DNA of 64,000 nucleotides from Oscillospiraceae bacterium (GTDB lineage: Bacteria > Bacillota > Clostridia > Oscillospirales > Acutalibacteraceae), in assembly GCA_902792905.1 (NCBI GenBank), contig CADBBH010000008.1, positions 97,635 through 161,634 of the forward strand, given 5' to 3'. Under the pieces are notes generated by a model. That model was not told the origin of the DNA, searched no databases, and saw only the letters and a list, made by a program, of their open reading frames with translations. Below, in pieces: positions 4,143 to 16,068 of this stretch. The number at the start of each line of letters is the position of its first letter. Position 1 is the stretch's first letter. A program made the translations under genes and the position numbers.

Positions 4143-4195
4143 AAAACAAAAGATCCACCCGGATTGACAGCTTTTCCGGGTGGATCTTTTGTTTT
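4143..4195 (+). terminator. Rho-independent terminator after the TM2 gene
   Basis: A perfect 20-bp stem (4143-4162 with 4176-4195) and a 13-base loop. The arms carry A-rich and T-rich outer ends, so it can work in both directions. Confidence 0.9.
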
Positions 4196-5929: not shown

Positions 5930-6343
5930 CTATTCTTTTTCATTTAAATCTTCGTTTTCAAGGACGCTATTAATATTAAACGGAGGCAAAACTACGCAAT
6001 CAACTTCAGGTTGTGCTGTTAATAAAGATACCTGGCTCCTCATATAAGGCATAATAATTGCAATTGTGTTTTTTGTAATCAACTCATTTTTATCTTTTTC
6101 ACTAATATCAGCGCTCGAATCAAACGAAAAATAACCTGTTAATACAATTTCAAATGAGTACTCTTCTTCCTTTTCACATTTTAATAGTAATGTAATTCTG
6201 TAAATATTATCGTCTTCATTTTTAGCAAAACGCGCTTCAATTTTAAAGTTTGGCTTGTTTTGATTTCTAAAGCCCAATCTATCAAACTCTATTTTATCAA
6301 ATACCAATTTGTTCATTTTAAGAACACTTTTAATATCTTCCAT
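5930..6343 (-). CDS. SecB-like chaperone
   Basis: A 137-residue protein. Its C-terminal half matches SecB: a hydrophobic 'G-x-F-x-F' strand, then NTIAIIMPYMRSQVSLLT, then a VLPPFNINSVL ending, comparable to the PYAR...PPxNF...L region of SecB. SecB binds unfolded proteins. In Gram-positive bacteria and mycobacteria, SecB-like proteins can also serve toxin-antitoxin systems as dedicated chaperones. The start chosen has GAGGG seven bases before ATG; an upstream GTG-type start would lack one. It is the last gene of a three-gene unit, 10 bp after its neighbour. That placement in an AT-rich island suggests a specialised client rather than general export; this is inference. Confidence 0.65.
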   Translation of the reverse strand: MEDIKSVLKMNKLVFDKIEFDRLGFRNQNKPNFKIEARFAKNEDDNIYRITLLLKCEKEEEYSFEIVLTGYFSFDSSADISEKDKNELITKNTIAIIMPYMRSQVSLLTAQPEVDCVVLPPFNINSVLENEDLNEKE

Positions 6344-6353
6344 TTTTATACCC

Positions 6354-7037
6354 TCATACAGCAATCCCAATAACCGAGAATGATCTGGTCGTTAAAGCAT
6401 CATCAAATAAAATAGTCTTAAAGCAGTCTTTGTTTCGTTCCATAGGCTTATTGTATGGAATCTCTATCATTTCACTATCACCAATAGAAATAGATTTTAA
6501 ATTATTTATTAAACATCCAATATCCAAGTACTTGGCAATGTTATTGACACTTTCAATAAATGTTCCGCTTTTTGAAAGAAAAGACTCTGAGAAGTCGTCC
6601 GTTTTTCCAAGATAATCAAACACGATTTCATTTAGGTATTTAGAAGTTATCTTTTCTATATAATCAACATTTTTATCAGTTATCGCTTCAAAAACGGCTC
6701 CTTCCACAGGCAAAAAATCATAGTTAATATCTTCAATACTATGTAATTCTATAGTGTCATCAGAAAAAACATCTCCTGTCACAACTGACCAAAAATGGTC
6801 AGAATCCAGCATTGCTTCTCGCATTGTTAACCTTTGAGTGAGCATTTTCCAAAGTGTTATCGTCGAAATATTAACAACTAAATACTCAAGATTCTCTAAA
6901 TCTACACATAGAGCCAAATAAAAGCAACCATCCTCATCTTTACATACAAAAAGCATTGGGGTATCGTTAAAATAGATTAGACCATTATCAAAATACAGCT
7001 TATTCTGGTCTAATATAAAACATATTTTTTTGTCCAT
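6354..7037 (-). CDS. Unrecognised 227-residue protein, middle gene of the SecB-like operon
   Basis: A soluble, acidic protein with no signal peptide or membrane segment. The N-terminal half (FVCKDEDGCFYLALCVDL, then VVNISTITLWKMLTQRLTMR) has alternating strands and a short helix. It loosely resembles small domains of unknown function (DUF6575-like), but I cannot confirm this. The ATG chosen follows AAAGGATGAT with proper spacing and lies just downstream of the previous gene's stop. Tight packing with the SecB-like gene suggests it could be the client or a partner of that chaperone. Confidence 0.6.
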   Translation of the reverse strand: MDKKICFILDQNKLYFDNGLIYFNDTPMLFVCKDEDGCFYLALCVDLENLEYLVVNISTITLWKMLTQRLTMREAMLDSDHFWSVVTGDVFSDDTIELHSIEDINYDFLPVEGAVFEAITDKNVDYIEKITSKYLNEIVFDYLGKTDDFSESFLSKSGTFIESVNNIAKYLDIGCLINNLKSISIGDSEMIEIPYNKPMERNKDCFKTILFDDALTTRSFSVIGIAV

Positions 7038-7038
7038 T

Positions 7039-7482
7039 TTAATCATCCTTTAAAAAACTAAAATCATCAAAACCTATATCAGCACACAGCCACCAACTAA
7101 TATGGTTATTTTTTGTATACTCTGGTCCTCCTTCTTGATGCACATATCCTTTAACAATTTTCTTTTTGGGCTTAGGAAGTTTGAAACTCTCTTTTAAACA
7201 TTCTTTGTTTTTAAAAAAAGAAACAGAATAATATTCAGGGTCATTTATATCGAATTCGCCGCGCGGTTTCTTATTCATTTCAAAGTATGAAAGCATGTCT
7301 CTTTTTTCAATAGGCGAATAGTCATCAATGTCCCTTATAACTAGCCTGAAAGCTAAAATAGGCTCATAATTAAAATTAGTACCCAAAGGTAATTCTATTT
7401 CTTTATTATCTATTTTGCACTTCAAAATACTAGGAAAGGTTTTATATAAATCAAATTCTTTCTCTTTATTCATAATATGCAT
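7039..7482 (-). CDS. Unrecognised protein, first gene of the SecB-like operon
   Basis: About 147 residues, soluble, rich in Lys, Glu and aromatic residues, with a C-terminal segment ending NNHISWWLCADIGFDDFSF. No family was recognised. The start is uncertain: a TTG at 7497 and ATGs at 7482 and 7473 are in frame. The promoter at 7512-7540 predicts transcription from about 7505, favouring 7482. The stop overlaps the start region of the next gene. The strong promoter and three tight genes show a real operon. Confidence 0.55.
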   Translation of the reverse strand: MHIMNKEKEFDLYKTFPSILKCKIDNKEIELPLGTNFNYEPILAFRLVIRDIDDYSPIEKRDMLSYFEMNKKPRGEFDINDPEYYSVSFFKNKECLKESFKLPKPKKKIVKGYVHQEGGPEYTKNNHISWWLCADIGFDDFSFLKDD

Positions 7483-7511
7483 ACCAAACTTCTTCAAAAA
7501 ACTTGTTAATT

Positions 7512-7540: not shown

Positions 7541-7585
7541 CTGCAAATTATTGAATCACTAATCAATTACCAAAAGATATATATT

Positions 7586-7612
7586 AAACTTACAATAACT
7601 ATTAATTATTGT
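7586..7612 (+). repeat. Left 27-bp inverted repeat, recombinase-core-like
   Basis: Identical in 27 of 27 bases to the reverse complement of 10898-10924. Inside it is a 9-7-9 dyad: TTACAATAA (7590-7598), asymmetric spacer CTATTAA, TTATTGTAA (7606-7614). This geometry is that of a tyrosine recombinase crossover site; it could also be a repressor operator. Sequence further upstream is related to, but diverged from, the right copy. Confidence 0.8.
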
Positions 7613-7648
7613 AAAATAATAGTTTATCATTATAGGTGAAAATGAAAT

Positions 7649-9919
7649 ATGATTAATTACGCTGATCGAGAACAAGAATTGACAAAACTAAAAACAGAAT
7701 TTAATCATAATCATAATGCAATTTTTGTAATGGCAGGAAAAGCTTTTGGTATTACTTCGTTTTTAAAAGATAAGGCGCAAATATATATAGGTAACCAAGG
7801 GTTTCTTAGTTTTTATGTAAATTCTGCCTCCATACAGAACTTATCAGAAAATTTACTAAGCACAATCATTAAAGATCCGGAACTATATGCAACCCTACAA
7901 AAGTGTATGGATACTAGCTATGGAAAAAAAGAATGGCATAATATAATGCAAGATGTGCCATATATAGGAAACACCCTGTCAACAATATTAACTTCAAAGT
8001 CCTCGTTACCATTATATTCAGGGAATTATGCATCTGCGGTAGAAGAAGTATTAACAGTGTTTTTTAGCATGTTATCTCGACCGACGGTTATTATGATAGA
8101 TCACGCGCAAAGTCTTTTTGAAGATGATTATAGTTTAATCATAGATTTGATAACATATAATCATACAATATTCATTTTTGCTATTACTGAACAAAATGAT
8201 TCGTATCGTAAATTAAAAAATCTTATATTCCAAAAATCAATTTCTTCGTCCGAAATATTTTTTGGTGAACCTCACAAAGATTTAGTAATAGAACTTGGGA
8301 AATTATTTGATTATTCAATTAGTTCTAAAGAAGCAAATCAGTTGTTGATTTCTACAGAATCTAACATACATAAAATAATAGAACACTTCTCCAACCCTAA
8401 CAAATCATACCGTTTAAATGCAGTTGAAAAATCTATTGTAGCAATATTGGATATTTTAGGATATCCGATAGAAAAATCAGAATTGTTCAGCATAATAAAG
8501 TTGTGCAATATCTATGCTAAAAACTATACACAAGCATTTGATGAAGCTCTTCAAAAATTGCAGGCGACATCAATAATTTCTGAAAAAAGCACATCGTTTG
8601 AATTGAACTCAAAGAGCCATCCTGAGGTTGCTGAAGTAATTAATTCTTACGCTCAAAAAATATTATACAAAAGTGCAGTGCTAAAATATTACAAATCACG
8701 CGGAACTGATTTTGCATATAGTGTAAGTACATTAACACTTTTGACGAGCATTGCATATGAATTAGAAGATGAAACATGTGAAACATTTGCTCGCCAACTC
8801 ATCAAGTATCATTTGAAAAATGGATCAATGATTAAGAGGGAAATCATTGAAAGAGCCCAATTAAAATCTGACAGTGTGAATGACTGTATTGTTGGTAGTA
8901 TTATAGCAGCAAACAGAAAAAAATATGAAGACGCAATAGAGTGGATAGCGAAAATAGATGTTAATGCAAATAATTATATTAAAAGTTATTACGGGATACT
9001 ACTAAATAGAGTGCGTCGTCATTCTGAAGCAGAAATCATTTTAACGAGTGTAATAGATAATACAATGGACAAAGAATTAGGGGTTATAGTAAGTTCGTAT
9101 TTGGTTTCAAATTATGTTCATCAAGAAAAACTAAATGAAGCACAAAATGCCTTTCATAATGCACGCATCAAATATACCGGCACTCGAAATCTGGGATATT
9201 TGATAAGGAACGCTGTATCTGCATTTGAAGAAGATAGAGACGACCTGTATCAAAGCGCACTTGAATCTTTTCTTAATGCCAACGATATGTTTGGATATTA
9301 CAGTACGCTTAATAATCAAGGATATCACCTATTGAACACTAATCCTGAAAAGGGAATGGATTTATTAAGCAAAGCACTTGACAATTTGAAGCTCTTTGGA
9401 GAGAATTTAACTCAAATTGCGAGAAATGATCTGGGGCTTGGTCATTTGTTTATGGGCAATTATGAAGAAGCTATTAGTTGTTTCTCTGTCGTAATGGCAA
9501 ATGAATCACCCAACATGGTACAACTATTTGCTAAAATTAACTTTGCTTGTAGCCAACTGCTAATTGGAAAAAAAGAATTTGCACTAAAAATAATGAATGA
9601 AATAAGTCCATTTATAGAGCACTATCCATTAGACAGGGTGCGGCAAAAGTATTACATTAACAGGCTATTTATTGAATACTATGCTAATAAAAATGTTAGT
9701 GAAGATCTTATTCAAAAAGCAAAGCAGTATCCAGATAGATATCATCCAGAAAGAACTGAAGCTGCCATTTCCTTTTACATGAGAAATAAAAAGACAAAAA
9801 ACAGAAAAATAGATAGCACGTGGAAAAACCTTTATTCACCTTGTGGACTAGCATATTGGGTTTTAAACCCTTTAAAAATCTTTCCCGAAGGATTCATTGA
9901 TCAAATTATTCCTGTATAG
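7649..9919 (+). CDS. STAND-like NTPase with degenerate P-loop and C-terminal TPR-type repeats
   Basis: A 756-residue cytoplasmic protein. It opens with YADREQELTKL, the usual entry to AAA/STAND modules, but the P-loop reads MAGKAFGITSFL, without the GK(S/T) lysine. The Walker B-like strand is TVIMIDHAQSLF, with His where the catalytic acid would be. So nucleotide hydrolysis may be lost. A winged-helix-like middle (about residues 265-330) is followed by TPR-like helical hairpins to about residue 690 (for example GYHLLNTNPEKGMDLLSKALDNL). STAND proteins act as signal-dependent switches. Its 3' end overlaps the opposing ATP-grasp gene by 48 bp, and both are enclosed by the inverted repeat. Confidence 0.65.
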   Translation: MINYADREQELTKLKTEFNHNHNAIFVMAGKAFGITSFLKDKAQIYIGNQGFLSFYVNSASIQNLSENLLSTIIKDPELYATLQKCMDTSYGKKEWHNIMQDVPYIGNTLSTILTSKSSLPLYSGNYASAVEEVLTVFFSMLSRPTVIMIDHAQSLFEDDYSLIIDLITYNHTIFIFAITEQNDSYRKLKNLIFQKSISSSEIFFGEPHKDLVIELGKLFDYSISSKEANQLLISTESNIHKIIEHFSNPNKSYRLNAVEKSIVAILDILGYPIEKSELFSIIKLCNIYAKNYTQAFDEALQKLQATSIISEKSTSFELNSKSHPEVAEVINSYAQKILYKSAVLKYYKSRGTDFAYSVSTLTLLTSIAYELEDETCETFARQLIKYHLKNGSMIKREIIERAQLKSDSVNDCIVGSIIAANRKKYEDAIEWIAKIDVNANNYIKSYYGILLNRVRRHSEAEIILTSVIDNTMDKELGVIVSSYLVSNYVHQEKLNEAQNAFHNARIKYTGTRNLGYLIRNAVSAFEEDRDDLYQSALESFLNANDMFGYYSTLNNQGYHLLNTNPEKGMDLLSKALDNLKLFGENLTQIARNDLGLGHLFMGNYEEAISCFSVVMANESPNMVQLFAKINFACSQLLIGKKEFALKIMNEISPFIEHYPLDRVRQKYYINRLFIEYYANKNVSEDLIQKAKQYPDRYHPERTEAAISFYMRNKKTKNRKIDSTWKNLYSPCGLAYWVLNPLKIFPEGFIDQIIPV

Positions 9920-10873
9920 ACTGGAGTACGTAATGTTTTCTATGAGTTCGGTATAGGAGATTCCTACTGATTTTGCGGATTGACTAATTGTAGAGTGCTC
10001 TCCAAGATTACAACAAACATTGAATTCTAAAAAGTATGGAACACCGGTATCATCAACAATATAATCAAATCTCGTGTAATCTAATGGTTGAATTTGGTCA
10101 AATAACAGTTGCGAGTATTGCTGAATCGTTTTATTTAATACCCTGTCATTTATTATTTCCCGAGTTAATCCTGATTCAATTTTGCGCTTTTGCCCATGTG
10201 TAACTACTCCTCCTAAATGCGTAGAATGCTGGCTAACACATGGCAACAGTAACGGAAAATTAAAATTGTTAAGCACCGGAGATGTGTGATATACTCCTTT
10301 TATTTGCTGTTCGAGAATCACATCTATATTATGTTGAAATAAAACTTGAATTTGGTTATAAGCATATTTCCATGTGTTGCAAATGGAGTCTTCGTTGATA
10401 TACATGGACGCAGCTCCAAAACGGGGTTTTACAAAATATGGCGGTGCAAAATCTGGCTCGCATATTTTATCACAGACATTATATGTTTTCCAAGCTGGAG
10501 TCGGCACTTTTAAATACCTTGCGAGTATTTTTGCTAGATGCTTATCTTCGGCAAGTGCTCGTATATTTGGTGTAGCGCCCAAATAAGGAATTCTTAAATA
10601 TTCAGCAACGGATGAAACAAATATTTCGGAATGGCGAAATGGCATCCGATTATATAATGAAAAAATATAATCCACTTTTAAACTCGGATTCAAAAGTAAG
10701 GAAACATTATTGGATGATATTAAATTTGGGAAAATAACTGATAGTTCAGTATAAATCTTATGATGATATATGGCATAAGCCTTATCATAAATACCATTTG
10801 GTACTTTGTCATGTTTGCTTTGAGGTGCATAATGTGCTAAGAATAACACATTATAATCTTTAATATCTTTCAT
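9872..10873 (-). CDS. ATP-grasp protein, D-alanine-D-alanine ligase-like
   Basis: A 333-residue soluble protein. The ATP-grasp fold is visible as PPYFVKPRFGAASM (ATP-binding Lys), TRFDYIVDDTG and YFLEFNVCCNLG, giving the Asp, Glu and Asn that bind Mg2+ in D-Ala-D-Ala ligases. Such enzymes join a carboxyl group to an amine using ATP; the substrate here is not predictable. The N-terminal third is unlike housekeeping Ddl and the gene has no cell-wall neighbours, so a role in peptidoglycan or glycopeptide resistance is not supported. It has a strong promoter, with the inverted repeat lying in its leader, and converges on the STAND-like gene. Confidence 0.7.
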   Translation of the reverse strand: MKDIKDYNVLFLAHYAPQSKHDKVPNGIYDKAYAIYHHKIYTELSVIFPNLISSNNVSLLLNPSLKVDYIFSLYNRMPFRHSEIFVSSVAEYLRIPYLGATPNIRALAEDKHLAKILARYLKVPTPAWKTYNVCDKICEPDFAPPYFVKPRFGAASMYINEDSICNTWKYAYNQIQVLFQHNIDVILEQQIKGVYHTSPVLNNFNFPLLLPCVSQHSTHLGGVVTHGQKRKIESGLTREIINDRVLNKTIQQYSQLLFDQIQPLDYTRFDYIVDDTGVPYFLEFNVCCNLGEHSTISQSAKSVGISYTELIENITYSSLYRNNLINESFGKDF

Positions 10874-10897
10874 AAAGCTTTCCTTTATATATAACTC

Positions 10898-10924
10898 ACA
10901 ATAATTAATAGTTATTGTAAGTTT
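10898..10924 (-). repeat. Right 27-bp inverted repeat, recombinase-core-like
   Basis: Perfect reverse complement of 7586-7612. The inner arms are ACAATAA and TTATTGT around the spacer TTAATAG, the mirror of the left spacer. Opposed spacers mean that recombination between the copies would invert the 3.3 kb between them. Confidence 0.8.
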
Positions 10925-10935
10925 GTTATAGAAAT

Positions 10936-10964
10936 ATTATATCTTGTTTTGGTAAAATATTCAA
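10936..10964 (-). promoter_or_regulatory. Sigma-A promoter reading into the ATP-grasp gene, outside the inverted repeat
   Basis: On the minus strand TTGAAT (10964-10959), a 17-bp spacer, TATAAT (10941-10936). The related sequence on the left side (TTGAAT at 7551) lacks a well-spaced -10, so the right promoter looks stronger. Confidence 0.7.
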
Positions 10965-10997: not shown

Positions 10998-11906
10998 ATG
11001 AATATTCAGGAAATAACACGCGACTATTTAAGTATTATAAAATCCACAAAAAACCTGTCTGATAAAACAATGATTGCATATGATTCGGATTTGAAAGATT
11101 TTTGTTTGTTTCTGAACAATCGACAAATATATGATGATATCATTTTCGACTATACAAATCATTTGCAAAATGACCGTCATTTAAAAACCAGCACAATAAC
11201 CCGAAAACTTACAGTTCTCAAAGCATTTTTCGAATATTTGTTTAGAAATGAATACATAAGCAATAACTGTTTTCAAAAGTATTCTTTTAAACTCAAGAGG
11301 GAGCGTAAGCTTCCAAAAACTCTTTCTGTCACTGAGTCTTCAAAACTCATTAACCATCTTACTGATAAAGTAAAAGAAAAAACATCTTCTTTTTCAAATT
11401 GGAAAGCATCAAGAGATCTTGCTTTAATTGATTTATTAATCAGTTCAGGAATAAGAATTCAAGAAGCATCTAACATATCACTTAATGACATACTCTTCAG
11501 TGAAAAAACCATACTTATAAATGGTAAAGGTAAAAAACAAAGGCTGATCTATATTTCTTGTAATGACACCTGGAATAACATTTTGAATTGGATTGAACTC
11601 AGAAATAACAAAACCAATTATACTGATAAACTATTTGTTAACCGCTTTGGTAATCAAATAAGCATTCACGGGATTGAATACATATATAATACTGTTAAAA
11701 CACAATGCGGCATAAATATATTTTCGACGCCTCATCATCTCCGTCATACCTTCGCGACAAATCTGTTAGCAAATGGTGCTGATCTAAGATCAGTCCAGGA
11801 AATACTTGGACACAGCAGTGTAATAACTACAGAAATTTATACCGAAGTTACGATTAACCGCAAAAAGCAAATTCTCACAGATTACAATTTCAGAAATAAT
11901 CTGTAG
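10998..11906 (+). CDS. Tyrosine recombinase, XerC/D-like
   Basis: A 302-residue recombinase with an N-terminal SAM-like core-binding domain (about 1-100) and a catalytic domain. Catalytic residues are visible: Arg in SGIRIQEAS, Lys in INGKGKKQR, His and Arg in HHLRHTF, His in LGHSS and Tyr in TEIYTEV. It is short, without the arm-binding domain of Tn916-type integrases, and so resembles Xer and invertase-type recombinases. GAGGTG precedes the ATG. It lies next to the right inverted repeat and is transcribed away from it. Its likely target is that repeat pair (inference); integration of the neighbouring ICE is a less likely alternative. Confidence 0.85.
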
Positions 11907-12048: not shown

Positions 12049-13677
12049 TCATTTGCCTGTTTTTATTTTGTCTATAATAACTTCTCCCGTCTTTAAACAA
12101 ACCATTATAGTTGAATCTGAATTGACTTTAATACAAGATACACACTTCCGAACGATTCGATCGTCAAACTTTTCAAACCCAGAGATCGAGGATAATTCCC
12201 GCTCAATCAATTCGGATTCTTTTATTCCCGCAGTTGCGTCGGATAATTTCTTTGCCTCGGCAAGCTTCTCACGCAGGATCTTTATCTGCTCATACATCTT
12301 CGTGATTTCAGCATCATATTTCTCAGCGTTGCCACCAGAGGTCAGACGAAGCATCATCACCCTGTCCGCATCAGCCTGTATTTCCCTTATGCTCTGTTCG
12401 ATTGCGAAAACGTCAATCGCATTGGCTTCATCGTTCAAAGCATATTTCAGATTATTCCGTATCATATCCATACCGGAGCCCGTATTTGAACATGCTTTTT
12501 TCAAACATCTGCAAACCGCATCCTGTAAATCGCTTTCTTTTATCCCTTTGGATTTCGGGCAGGCGGATTTGCCGTTGTCCGTTCTGTTCAGGCAACGCCA
12601 GTAAACAACCTTCTCTTCCCCGTTGCTCTTGATCCTGCGTTTCATGTGACTTCCGCAGTTCCCGCAAACAAGAATTTCAGAGAACACATATTTGCTGCTG
12701 TACTGCCCCTGACCTGTGATTCCCTTTGAGGATTTCTTTCTTTCGGCGGTTCTTCTGGTTCGTTCCAGCTGAACCGCCTTGAATGCATCACGAGAGATGA
12801 TTGCCGTATGATGGTTGCTGACAAGATACTTGGTCATTTCACCGTTGTTGACCTTTGCCTTTTTTGATATGCAATTTTCAGTAAAGGTTTTCTGATATAA
12901 AATATCTCCGACATACTTTTCGTTACCGAGAATGCCGACAACTGCGTTGTTTGACCATTTGCAGGAACCGTTTACTGTCTTGCGCCCTCTCTGTTCCAAA
13001 TATGAACAAATCCCTTTGATCGAGTAACCGTCAAGATACAGAGAATAGATTTTTCTGACCGTTTCAGCTTCCTCGGGAATGATGATAATCTCATCCTCTT
13101 TCGTTTGTCTGTAACCGAGCAGATTCATGCGTGTGTGATAAGTTCCGTTGCGCATCCGCTTCTGGATGCCCCACTTCACATTCGCGGAAATGTTTTCACT
13201 TTCTGTCTGAGCGATTACACTGTAAATACCGACAAACATCTCGCTGTCTTCCTGAAGCGTATTGCAATTCTGCTCTTCAAAATAAATCCCGATGTTCATC
13301 GATTTCAGCTTTCGGACATATTCCAATGAATCAACAGTATTTCTGGCAAAACGGGAAACGGATTTTGTAAGAATCAAATCGATTTTCCCTTTTTTGCAGT
13401 CACGGAGCATCCGTTGAAAATCTTTTCTCTTCTTTACGCCCGTGCCGCTGATTCCTTCATCCGCATAGATGTCAACAAAATGCCACTTGGGATTTTTCGT
13501 GATATATTCTGTATAATAAGCAACCTGGGCTTCATAACTGTTGAGCTGGTCTTCATCATCCGTGGAAACACGGCAGTATGCTGCAACATTGAGCGGTCGC
13601 AGGGTGTCCCCTTTCGGTGATAAGAGCGGATTGGCTTCGATTTTTGTTACGATTTTTTCTCCCGTCTGTGTCATCAT
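12049..13677 (-). CDS. Large serine recombinase (third of a triplet)
   Basis: A 542-residue recombinase. The resolvase domain (about residues 28-175) has the nucleophile in VAAYCRVSTDDEDQ and the conserved SVSRFARNTVDSLEYVRKLK helix. A recombinase domain follows, then a zinc ribbon (CGNCGSHMKRR ... CLNRT...C) and a coiled-coil-rich C-terminus, as in TnpX/TndX-type enzymes. It catalyses excision and integration by staggered double-strand cuts. AAAGGATAATATAT precedes the ATG. It starts 13 bp after the catalytic-domain-less recombinase, so the three form one operon. Confidence 0.92.
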   Translation of the reverse strand: MMTQTGEKIVTKIEANPLLSPKGDTLRPLNVAAYCRVSTDDEDQLNSYEAQVAYYTEYITKNPKWHFVDIYADEGISGTGVKKRKDFQRMLRDCKKGKIDLILTKSVSRFARNTVDSLEYVRKLKSMNIGIYFEEQNCNTLQEDSEMFVGIYSVIAQTESENISANVKWGIQKRMRNGTYHTRMNLLGYRQTKEDEIIIIPEEAETVRKIYSLYLDGYSIKGICSYLEQRGRKTVNGSCKWSNNAVVGILGNEKYVGDILYQKTFTENCISKKAKVNNGEMTKYLVSNHHTAIISRDAFKAVQLERTRRTAERKKSSKGITGQGQYSSKYVFSEILVCGNCGSHMKRRIKSNGEEKVVYWRCLNRTDNGKSACPKSKGIKESDLQDAVCRCLKKACSNTGSGMDMIRNNLKYALNDEANAIDVFAIEQSIREIQADADRVMMLRLTSGGNAEKYDAEITKMYEQIKILREKLAEAKKLSDATAGIKESELIERELSSISGFEKFDDRIVRKCVSCIKVNSDSTIMVCLKTGEVIIDKIKTGK

Positions 13678-13690
13678 ATATATTATCCTT

Positions 13691-14518
13691 TCAGATGCAG
13701 TCCTTGCCGTTTTTGAGTGTCAGGTGAACTTCACCATTTTCATCAACGGCAATCTTTTCACAAATCTTTTTCATCAAGTCAAAACCAGGAGGCTCTTTTG
13801 ATAATGCTGCCGTCAATTCCTTGGATATTTCATATGTACCGGAATTGACGCAGCAGTCATATCTTTTGGAAACACAATCGAGCACAACCGATTTCAAAAG
13901 TTGATATGACGGATTTGGTTCCGATATCAGCCTTTCAATTTCATTTTCATACTTCCTTGCTTCCGGAGATAAAGAAAAATCCTCAACTGTAAAATCATCT
14001 GCAATGCTTTCCGGATGATCCTTGAGCAATGAAAGCTTTTCCAGAATCATATTCTGCAAATCCAAATCCCTTATTGGTTTGCTTTTGATGCACTTGTTCA
14101 GACAAATCCAGCGATAGCTTCCGTCCTTCATTCTGCGCCGATAAAGCTGCTTTCCGCAAGCATGACAAAATGCTTTCTGTTTGAGCCACCGAAGCTCATC
14201 CGTTAAAGGCTCCTGCTTTGCTATATTTTCTTTTTTATTTGCACGCTCAAACAGTTCCTTTGAAATAATCTGCGGATAAATGCCTCCCCCGATATATCTT
14301 GTATCTGTCAAGATTCGGTAGACCATATTTTTATTCCACGTTTTTTTATCTGAGCTGTACGGAATACCTGTTGTATTTAGCCACTTTACAATCTCCGCTA
14401 TAGTTGTTCCGCCTATGTATTCGGAATATATGGATTGAACAACATTTGATTCAGAAGGGTCCGGAATATATCCGGCATTCTGAAATGTATATCCGTAAAG
14501 AATGGTTCGCAGTTTCAT
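13691..14518 (-). CDS. Serine recombinase-like protein lacking the catalytic domain (second of triplet)
   Basis: A 275-residue protein that begins directly with the recombinase domain (MKLRTILYGYTF ... YSEYIGGTTIAEIVKWLN), then a zinc ribbon (CHACGKQLYRRR ... CLNKC) and a C-terminal helical region. The N-terminal resolvase domain with the serine nucleophile is absent, so it cannot cut DNA. It probably acts as an accessory DNA-binding subunit or directionality partner. The ATG overlaps the stop of the preceding recombinase (ATGA), with GAGAGG before it, showing translational coupling and arguing that this is a maintained gene rather than debris. Confidence 0.85.
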   Translation of the reverse strand: MKLRTILYGYTFQNAGYIPDPSESNVVQSIYSEYIGGTTIAEIVKWLNTTGIPYSSDKKTWNKNMVYRILTDTRYIGGGIYPQIISKELFERANKKENIAKQEPLTDELRWLKQKAFCHACGKQLYRRRMKDGSYRWICLNKCIKSKPIRDLDLQNMILEKLSLLKDHPESIADDFTVEDFSLSPEARKYENEIERLISEPNPSYQLLKSVVLDCVSKRYDCCVNSGTYEISKELTAALSKEPPGFDLMKKICEKIAVDENGEVHLTLKNGKDCI

Positions 14519-16068
14519 TTTCTGATCCTCTCTCTGAACTTCAATCCGCAATACAGAACGAAAATCAATTCTACATCGCGGGTCACGATCACTTCTTTGA
14601 CCAAATTCTTAAACAAAGAAAGATCGAATTCAATAACCACCTTCGGCAATCCTTCAAGTTTCTGCTTAAAAGCACGAAGGCCGAACAGCGTCCCTTCATC
14701 ATCGTTGCCTGCCAGCATCCGCAGTCTTCGGCTCCGAAGCTCCGTCAGACGTTTTCTGACTTCATTGGATTTTTCGGCATAGGATACTTCATCCATAATA
14801 CTCTTCGTATAGAATTCCATATACATATTATTCTTTTCACTGAGTTCGACAATTTCTGCATCAATTTCATTGATTTCCTTTGTCGCAGAAGACGTGAGCG
14901 CCTGCAATTCAGACAGTTTTGAAATCGCATAATCAATCAGTTCATGCTCATTAGCTCTGAGCTTGTTATACATTATGTTAAAGGCATACTTAACATCCTC
15001 TTCCAAAACTATATGCGTCTTACAATTAGCTTCCGGCATACCGATTTGAGGACAGATCCATGCAATACCTCTTTTTTGTTTTCTTGTTTTCAGATGCTGA
15101 CCGCAGTCGCCGCAAACAAGCATTCCCGAAAAGTCCTTTATCTCAACCTTGCTGTGATTGTCATATCGGATACGGCGTCGTTCCATAAGCACCTGAGTTT
15201 TTTCAAAAGTTTCACGGTCAATGATGGCTTCATGAGAATTGGAAACATAATATTGATCTACTTCTCCTTTATTTAAGACACTTTTTAATGGTAGTTGAAG
15301 AGGAGTAAAAGTTTTTCTTAACAAACAATCTCCGATGTATTTCTCGTTTGTTATAATAAATCTTACCGACTCCGCACACCAGACTTTTCCACCTGCATCT
15401 ATATCATTCAGCATTCCTGCTATTTTACAAAAACCATACCCTGCAAGATACCATTCAAATAATTTCTTTACGATTTCCGCTTCATCGGGAATGGGATACA
15501 GCATTCCGTTTTCAAGGCGGTATCCGAATGGCGCGTTGCAGGTGATAAATTCTCCGGATTCCATTTTCATACGAATCGCGGTTGACACTCTTTTTGAACC
15601 CGCAAGTGCTTCGCTCTGGGCAAAAGCGCTCTTGATATACAGGATCATTTCCGAGTTCATCTTTTCGGTATCAATGTTGTCGTTTTCAAACAACACAGAT
15701 GTTCCGTATGATTTCAGAAGCCGGATATTCTCGATACATTCGAGTGCATTTCTTGCAAAGCGGGAAACACTTTTCACAAAAACCCGATCCAACTTTCCCG
15801 ACTTGCTGTCCTTCAGCATCCGCTGAAACTCTTCTCTCTTGTTGACACAGGTTCCCGTAATGCCTTCGTCGGCATAAATATCAACGAGAACCATATCGGA
15901 CGAATGGCTTATGAAATCGTTATAGTATTTGACCTGCGCGATAAATGAATCCGCCTGTTCTTCCGAATCGGTTGAAACACGGCAATAGGCTCCGACACGG
16001 AGTTTATTTGAAAGATTCGGTCCGGCTGTCGCACGGATGACTTTGACATCGTTTCTTGGTTCAAACAT
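14515..16068 (-). CDS. Large serine recombinase (first of a triplet)
   Basis: A 517-residue recombinase with the nucleophile serine in RVGAYCRVSTDSEEQ, the SVSRFARNALECIENIR helix, a recombinase domain, a zinc ribbon (CGDCGQHLKTRK ... CPQIGMPEANC) and a long C-terminal coiled coil. It is a paralogue of the enzyme at 12049-13677 with the same architecture but clearly different sequence. GGGGGAATCAAAT precedes the ATG. Triplets of serine recombinases are known from some streptococcal ICEs and probably act together for integration and excision. Confidence 0.92.
   Translation of the reverse strand: MFEPRNDVKVIRATAGPNLSNKLRVGAYCRVSTDSEEQADSFIAQVKYYNDFISHSSDMVLVDIYADEGITGTCVNKREEFQRMLKDSKSGKLDRVFVKSVSRFARNALECIENIRLLKSYGTSVLFENDNIDTEKMNSEMILYIKSAFAQSEALAGSKRVSTAIRMKMESGEFITCNAPFGYRLENGMLYPIPDEAEIVKKLFEWYLAGYGFCKIAGMLNDIDAGGKVWCAESVRFIITNEKYIGDCLLRKTFTPLQLPLKSVLNKGEVDQYYVSNSHEAIIDRETFEKTQVLMERRRIRYDNHSKVEIKDFSGMLVCGDCGQHLKTRKQKRGIAWICPQIGMPEANCKTHIVLEEDVKYAFNIMYNKLRANEHELIDYAISKLSELQALTSSATKEINEIDAEIVELSEKNNMYMEFYTKSIMDEVSYAEKSNEVRKRLTELRSRRLRMLAGNDDEGTLFGLRAFKQKLEGLPKVVIEFDLSLFKNLVKEVIVTRDVELIFVLYCGLKFRERIRK

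Follow-up and report, generated by a model that had tools for sequence, protein, structure and literature searches.

A probable flip-and-swap gene cassette beside a Xer-like recombinase in an Oscillospiraceae bacterium

Can two genes that face each other between perfect inverted repeats be turned over as a unit by the tyrosine recombinase encoded next to them, and what would such a switch choose between? This question is raised by a 64,000-nucleotide stretch of contig CADBBH010000008.1 (positions 97,635 to 161,634, forward strand) from the Oscillospiraceae bacterium assembly GCA_902792905.1, hereafter the window, in which a gene for a STAND-like protein and a gene for an ATP-grasp enzyme converge inside such repeats. 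An earlier inspection of the letters alone, called here the sequence-only reading, had proposed an invertible two-gene switch. From the comparison with related loci presented below, the window very probably holds a member of a family of flip-and-swap cassettes, in which recombinase-driven inversion switches the arm that faces the stronger promoter and the sites also permit replacement of the contents. The cassette side close to the recombinase is called the R arm and the distal one the D arm.

Crossover sites beside the recombinase

The 27 bp at 7586-7612 and at 10898-10924 were confirmed by direct comparison to be exact reverse complements, and the repeat reaches 33 nt at 94% when mismatches are allowed. 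The dyads are as the sequence-only reading had described them, TTACAATAA-CTATTAA-TTATTGTAA on the left and one base off on the right (TCACAATAA), and the likeness that it had claimed for the sequences outside the repeats (AATTATTGAAT, TTACCAAAA) was also seen. These flanks have diverged and the repeats stay identical. No other copy of the 21-bp repeat core occurs in the window at up to 3 mismatches (0 in shuffles), and a 23-bp core stretch matches only the two repeat places in the own genome (2.07 Mb, 24 contigs, up to 3 mismatches). The segment is bracketed by identical crossover sites in inverted orientation, as in a site-specific DNA inversion switch. The anatomy is complete: the convergent pair lies inside the repeats and the recombinase gene starts 73 bp outside the R repeat, both as previously reported, the pair has a tail-to-tail overlap of 48 bp, and the promoter motifs of the two flanks are asymmetric.

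The recombinase reading frame is intact and combines an integrase domain with a SAM-like N-terminus (PF00589 6.9e-34, PF02899 1.1e-10), which places it among Xer-like tyrosine recombinases. It remains below the NCBIfam equivalog cut-offs (XerC 225.4 of 335.15 bits, XerD 202.7 of 329.6), a strict level that was reached in only 4 of 14 control genomes. In the own genome (84% complete), where no protein exceeds the XerD cut-off, it is the top XerD-like protein with 202 bits, six others having at most 78.5.

A search of 99 relatives' genomes with the recombinase (cut-off 1e-40) gave seven matches, the own genome included. Two of the six relatives share the plan of the window with repeats that differ from its own, namely G046, with 27-nt perfect repeats around STAND-like and ATP-grasp genes, and G055, with 36-nt perfect repeats around an AAA-domain gene and a carbamoyltransferase gene. 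No matching repeat was found in the other four (G017, G039, G047, G061), the contigs of G039 and G047 ending 75 and 86 bp past the recombinase. At 1e-60, a three-row recombinase profile matched 24 of 394 genomes of the order, again including the own one. A broad contig scan with the recombinase yielded 340 relatives; the 80 best were retained, and the enlarged set comprised 103 loci.

In 26 of the 80 loci, an exact inverted repeat of 20 nt or more has one arm no farther than 1 kb from the recombinase, as compared with 0/80 for mirror, 0/80 for complement and 2/80 for direct repeats. In the enlarged set, exact inverted repeats of at least 17 nt lie beside the recombinase in 35 of 103 loci and 30 of these 35 contain an ATAA-N7-TTAT core; four duplicate loci (L012, L015, L108, L110) were dropped from this table. 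In 70 of the 103 loci a core lies no more than 450 bp from the recombinase; 80 cores were counted there, whereas their density elsewhere would predict about 12. The two sites of each locus share one near-palindromic sequence that includes a 7-bp spacer; this spacer is identical in the two arms of each locus and takes 28 different forms among 30 loci, as expected if strand exchange needs spacer identity. Among the family sites, neither an attI/attC pair nor XerC/XerD hybrid dif sites were found.

In a tree of 99 recombinases, from which L034, L035, L060 and L065 were omitted because their reading contains a stop or is shorter than 250 aa, all eight members of the window's clade (support 96/91) carry a CAATAA-type core, and one of them, L028, has a GATAA-type core in addition. 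The site type changes 5 times on this tree versus a mean of 11 in shuffles, the tree bootstrap not having settled. Recombinases with a core or repeats were found in Bacillota, on Campylobacterota plasmids and in a metagenome-assembled genome (MAG) of Treponema, and on a Paenibacillus plasmid the recombinase accompanies AAA/STAND-like and ATP-grasp genes enclosed by a perfect 30-nt repeat. Among the plasmids searched, the Paenibacillus cassette and the L166 cassette of pACRY43158 match only themselves. The E. coli genomes gave no DNA match to the window recombinase, and viral contigs contained no relative of this protein or of the window ATP-grasp protein in single-protein queries, which reach close relatives only.

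Several single loci extend this list. A human faecal scaffold filed as phage (L167:759-2863) combines the recombinase with a PALP-family enzyme and has a GATAA-type core at 2841; this stretch possibly belongs to a cassette of the family. A contig labelled Methanocorpusculum (L079) has the recombinase, ends 2 nt beyond a core site and is perhaps a misbinned bacterial contig. One genome (G408) has two contigs of about 3.1 kb (L111, L112) with a related recombinase on each. In two Aliarcobacter plasmids, a second site-specific integrase with the same protein accession adjoins the cassette recombinase (L170:11643-12851, L171:9487-10695).

Inversion and exchange of cassettes in relatives

The proposal of an invertible two-gene cassette was borne out in relatives by a reversed plasmid cassette, by MAG junctions in both orientations and by four contig ends that meet at one site. 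Two complete plasmids of Aliarcobacter cryaerophilus, pM830MA and pACRY43158, are 100% identical over 968 bp on the recombinase side and 99.9% identical over about 5.5 kb on the other side. Their 3.46-kb cassettes, which oppose an ATP-grasp gene to a large unknown gene, are 99.91% identical (3457/3458 bp) yet reversed, and both junctions fall at the 17-bp site. Natural inversion exactly at the sites has therefore occurred in the family. The D-arm gene of this cassette is annotated as two open reading frames (ORFs) in pM830MA (L168:1937-4407) and is one intact ORF in pACRY43158.

In MAG G503, the same cassette end is reached through the site from two contigs, one with the distal flank and one with the recombinase flank. 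One contig of MAG G506 joins the recombinase flank to both cassette ends, and a second one, which begins at the site, carries a different flank. The isolate Clostridium sp. HBUAS56010 provides the four ends: a 3077-bp contig consisting of the cassette alone, with convergent genes for a 582-aa protein and a 417-aa SHMT-like protein, stops on both sides at an 18-bp site where the two flank contigs stop as well. A similar break was observed in Lacrimispora amygdalina src4 (3528-bp cassette contig), in which overlaps show one readable orientation only. Such breaks are common, since in 28 of the 80 loci the contig stops no more than 450 bp from the recombinase, against 3.4 expected (P 2e-22). A core stands between recombinase and end in 24 of the 28, and 16 stop within 15 nt of the core, which is what mixed orientations produce. 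Some of the breaks could be due to long repeats; in L100, one of the 28, contig end and core are on the side away from its cassette. A further candidate for a contig with both orientations, L038, was dropped, its repeat reaching the contig end and holding no core.

Exchange of contents was also observed. Between pM830MA and pAFAEC, the recombinase side is 97.8% identical up to the site and the distal flank 90.4% identical, with the same site and spacer, and the cassettes are unrelated: an ATP-grasp gene and two unknowns in the former are replaced by GNAT and methyltransferase genes in the latter. Likewise, L028 and L032 are 87% identical on the recombinase side and their cassettes share a single 333-bp stretch (67%) in opposite direction, the distal flank of L028 matching neither the L029 nor the L032 flank. 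Replacement of cassettes between conserved sites, as known for integrons and dif modules, is thus found in the plasmids and in part in L028/L032. No exchange is claimed for L029 and L032, whose flanks match on both sides (88% over 1.0 kb and 87.5% over 2.8 kb), because only about 0.1 kb of the L029 cassette is known. Finally, L055 and L085 have sister recombinases and unrelated contents.

Conversely, homologues of both window genes occur together in L123 (58.8% identity for the ATP-grasp, 33.6% for the STAND-like protein), which keeps both repeats and has a distant recombinase and a GATAA-type site. This is the one locus found with homologues of both genes, and no second genome was found to carry the window locus itself. 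Among distant homologous pairs, the two cassettes point in opposite directions relative to the recombinase in L039/L090, L050/L052, L070/L099, L067/L088, L028/L032 and L084/L100 and in the same direction in L071/L091, L123/window, L055/L080 and L085/L100, these pairings not being exhaustive. Such differences are supporting evidence only, because capture in either direction could also give them.

Examination of related genomes for both orientations and for other genes in the cassette, proposed with the sequence-only reading as a check, thus yielded both. The results support a wider version of that reading, in which the cassette can flip and be swapped; the exchange and the breadth of the family go beyond it. 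The adjacent recombinase is the probable catalyst of the inversion, and the window locus would be expected to flip in the same way.

Genes of the cassettes

The features of the window cassette are collected in Table 1.

Table 1. Coordinates of the cassette features within the window
Feature	Position	Strand	Basis or detail
D copy of the inverted repeat (distal)	7586..7612	+	27 bp; core ACAATAA-CTATTAA-TTATTGT at 7592-7612
R copy of the inverted repeat (recombinase-proximal)	10898..10924	-	exact reverse complement of D copy
D-arm gene, STAND/TPR-like protein, 756 aa	7649..9919	+	weak TPR matches, none above Pfam cut-off
R-arm gene, D-Ala-D-Ala-ligase-like ATP-grasp enzyme, 333 aa	9872..10873	-	Dala_Dala_lig_C 1.7e-12
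Xer-family tyrosine recombinase, 302 aa, reads away from cassette	10998..11906	+	Phage_integrase 6.9e-34
Candidate promoter TTGAAT-17-TATAAT outside R repeat, aimed into cassette (now at ATP-grasp gene)	10936..10964	-	consensus match only
D flank, diverged copy of R-flank promoter region, without well-spaced -35/-10 pair	7546..7585	+	

Two strictly convergent arms were found in 28 of 32 cassettes, L033, L038 and L087 having been removed by hand before the gene table was made. One arm is often large and of AAA, TPR or STAND-like, or Mrr-AAA type, or else carries TIR or SIR2-STALD, several of the AAA and STAND matches falling below the Pfam cut-offs. The opposite arm is often an enzyme, such as an ATP-grasp protein, glycosyltransferase, carbamoyltransferase, SHMT-like protein, radical SAM protein, pyruvyl transferase or GNAT. 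Some cassettes have other contents, including pentapeptide repeats and unknowns. Several gene pairs recur together, and the large gene diverges faster than the enzyme (34% vs 59% identity for window/L123).

In the window, the D-arm protein is called STAND-like on the basis of layout, weak TPR matches and the partners seen in other cassettes. The Walker A motif GxxxxGK[ST], kept by many STAND partners elsewhere, is absent from this protein and from its L123 homologue, neither of which qualifies by it as a STAND NTPase, and no homologue of the window protein was found among 197 other genomes searched. The R-arm protein scores below the NCBIfam cut-off for D-alanine-D-alanine ligase (Ddl), with 77.7 of 243 bits at best. 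Its structure model has the Ddl fold by Foldseek (best 3r5x, 2.9e-19; model predicted local distance difference test (pLDDT) 69.6), generic Ddl-like relatives of 25-31% identity occur in nine other genomes of 198, and the RxD and ExN residues, which have a metal-binding role, are present. It is described here simply as an ATP-grasp protein.

The cassettes may serve immunity. When ten cassette proteins, the window ATP-grasp not among them, were compared with PADLOC, only two proteins of L085 matched: ThsA at 1.1e-59, and a TIR protein with PDC-S66 as best match (6.3e-21) and ThsB at 5.6e-12. L085 resembles the Thoeris system (ThsA/ThsB) in carrying a ThsA match with a TIR protein and differs from it in the convergent arrangement of both genes within an invertible cassette.

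Beyond the window recombinase, three large serine recombinase-like ORFs stand in a row at 12049-16068 (-); that at 12049-13677 is backed by Pfam and its two neighbours were judged by the look of their sequences alone. The row begins about 140 bp past the tyrosine recombinase gene, and a mobile island seems to adjoin the cassette. To the left of the cassette, three small genes at 5930-7497 (-) gave a weak SecB and Imm44 match, a weak DUF6575 match and none, all below cut-off. A perfect 21-bp inverted repeat with an 11-bp loop at 4143-4195 is terminator-like.

Expression of the arms, competing readings and significance

In the proposed mechanism, the Xer-like recombinase would act on two identical inverted sites (ATAA-N7-TTAT core, locus-specific 7-bp spacer) and invert the DNA between them, which carries two convergent arms whose genes mostly start just inside the sites and are probably transcribed from outside. 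Inversion would change the arm that faces the stronger outside promoter. In the present orientation of the window, this would be the ATP-grasp enzyme, the STAND-like protein being low or off, and the same sites would also allow whole cassettes to be replaced.

A strong inward promoter had been predicted on the right, and a site that fits was found (TTGAAT-17-TATAAT, 10964-10936, 10/12 positions), with a score of 10.3 vs 4.0 for the left flank; in the AT-rich region of the window, promoter-like matches number 32 vs 21.8 in shuffles (standard deviation 5.1), a modest excess only. In the family, the earliest possible start codons lie a median of 35 bp inside the core on the R arm and 44 bp on the D arm, and at most 60 bp in 16 of 26 per side, in a table from which L032, L065, L078 and L120 are left out as not being simple two-arm cassettes. 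Such distances leave little room for internal promoters, and transcription therefore probably enters from outside. Flank scores were compared for loci with the core in the repeat, L032 excepted. Where the recombinase reads toward the cassette, the D flank scores higher inward than outward in 15/20 loci (p 0.004) and the R flank in 5/9 (p 0.5). The claim that inversion swaps a strong promoter between the genes was borne out in part, since the window scores and the bias of one class of loci on one flank agree with it, but the bias is not uniform. Taken together, start distances, flank scores and the counts of terminators and gaps given below make external promoters likely and a single promoter per locus plausible. 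Either/or expression of the two arms is moderately supported and, in its strict form, unproven.

Several observations weigh against the flip-and-swap reading or parts of it. The window contig assembles through the cassette in a single orientation, 33 of the 103 loci have no core within 450 bp of the recombinase, and inverted repeats also turned up at 41 of 1400 random anchors placed in the 80 loci at distances above 8 kb from the recombinase. Duplication of the recombinase flank on either side of the cassette could, in principle, explain the G506 junctions, and a MAG may combine several strains. As for the promoters, at loci whose recombinase reads toward the cassette the D flank exceeds the R flank in 10/12 (p 0.016), or 8/12 when length-matched (p 0.05); at loci whose recombinase reads away, the window's own class, the R flank exceeds the D flank in 6/9 (p 0.2), with inward above outward in 7/9 on R (p 0.2) and 3/9 on D (p 0.9). 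The gap from recombinase stop to site is at most 30 nt in 11 of 40 'toward' loci, which could let read-through from the recombinase gene express the R arm as well. Regarding function, the window STAND-like protein has no PADLOC or NCBIfam match and its single-sequence structure model is uninformative (pLDDT 40), and the window ATP-grasp protein has no NCBIfam match above a cut-off. Moreover, the two arms of Thoeris-like cassettes should be needed together, which fits badly with strict either/or expression.

Among the alternatives, the idea that capture of cassettes came first is rather unlikely. It holds that the sites acquire and replace modules as in integrons or dif modules, and that inversion is a by-product of opposed sites and not a selected switch. 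It would account for pM830MA and pAFAEC, with unrelated cassettes at the same site and spacer between conserved flanks (97.8%, 90.4%), for L028 and L032 (87% on the recombinase side, one 333-bp stretch shared in opposite direction) and for the unrelated cassettes of the sister recombinases L055 and L085. Capture alone would not, however, require that 28 of 32 cassettes be two-armed and convergent with starts mostly near the sites, and no free circular cassette or tandem array was noticed, although neither was searched for systematically. It is similarly doubtful that both arms are always transcribed, one strongly from the flank promoter and one weakly by read-through, inversion then shifting the stoichiometry of cooperating proteins. 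A terminator is predicted between recombinase and site in only 12 of 40 'toward' loci, the Thoeris-like pair of L085 is split across the arms and partners recur as pairs, all in keeping with such tuning; the D flank of the window has no good promoter match, though, and its recombinase reads away from the cassette, so that its read-through cannot feed the R arm.

That the family inverts and the window copy is a locked relic, for example through a silent recombinase, is improbable: the single orientation in the assembly and the diverged promoter region of the D flank would agree with this, but the 27-bp repeats are identical despite their diverged flanks and the recombinase gene has an uninterrupted ORF that matches the integrase domain at 6.9e-34. 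Least credible by far is that the dyads are operators or sites of recombinase autoregulation and their inverted layout incidental. Operators often take the form of a dyad near a promoter, and one dyad does sit between the recombinase and its neighbour. Yet natural inversion occurs exactly at equivalent sites in plasmids and MAGs, and each locus has one spacer common to its two arms, 28 different spacers being found across 30 loci. The inversion between pM830MA and pACRY43158 contradicts the operator reading for the family, and this reading was rejected. The flip-and-swap reading accordingly remains the preferred one.

How do such cassettes relate to known systems? Dif modules of Acinetobacter plasmids, as far as the excerpted accounts go, are similarly bounded by Xer-type sites and shuffled between replicons. 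They rely on host XerC/XerD and pdif sites, whereas here a recombinase gene adjoins each cassette and the site is near-palindromic. The G segment of phage Mu and the C segment of P1 are invertible segments with alternative gene sets, like the present cassettes, but they involve serine recombinases and tail-fibre/host-range genes instead of a tyrosine recombinase. Both are named in excerpts of PMC12529663, according to which inversion of the e14 P segment by E. coli PinQ blocks phage T2. Recombinase inversion with an anti-phage outcome is common ground, but PinQ is a serine recombinase that acts on prophage tail genes at another locus and gives chimeric proteins (PMC12529663, same excerpts). 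The closest two-gene alternation is found in Ureaplasma, where inversion at inverted repeats alternates the neighbouring genes mba/UU376 and UU172/UU171; these encode surface proteins, and the abstract mentions neither a recombinase inside each locus nor exchange of contents (PMC3047005). In Clostridia, inverton group 139 was linked to tyrosine recombinase group 35 and resembles the cassettes as invertible DNA near such recombinases (PMC11892184). It might include members of the family; the excerpts of that paper leave two-arm immune/enzyme cassettes unmentioned. The six queried terms, among them convergent and ATP-grasp, do not occur in PMC5903667. Inversion switches of many kinds, but no description of two-arm cassettes, were found in the full-text literature searched, by titles and abstract starts and with most subscription papers and bioRxiv preprints outside it, so that absence from print is not established.

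The switch would serve to choose, by phase variation, whether the immune-like arm or the arm with the modifying enzyme is expressed. A broader hypothesis, tentative and somewhat more doubtful than not, is that these are widespread, so far undescribed mobile immune cassettes, whose opposed arms, set between recombinase-specific sites, pair a STAND, TIR or SIR2 sensor or effector with its cognate modifying enzyme. A clonal population would then be split by the arm expressed, for example into producers and sensors, and the cassettes would be traded across phyla. If the flip-and-swap reading is right, many Clostridia and some plasmids of other phyla would harbour a self-contained means of flipping and swapping pairs of immune-like genes, which would account for the recombinases beside some defence genes and would predict why short-read assemblies break at these loci. 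It would also offer compact recombinase/site pairs whose partner is set by a 7-bp spacer, and a mechanism for population-level bet-hedging in immunity.

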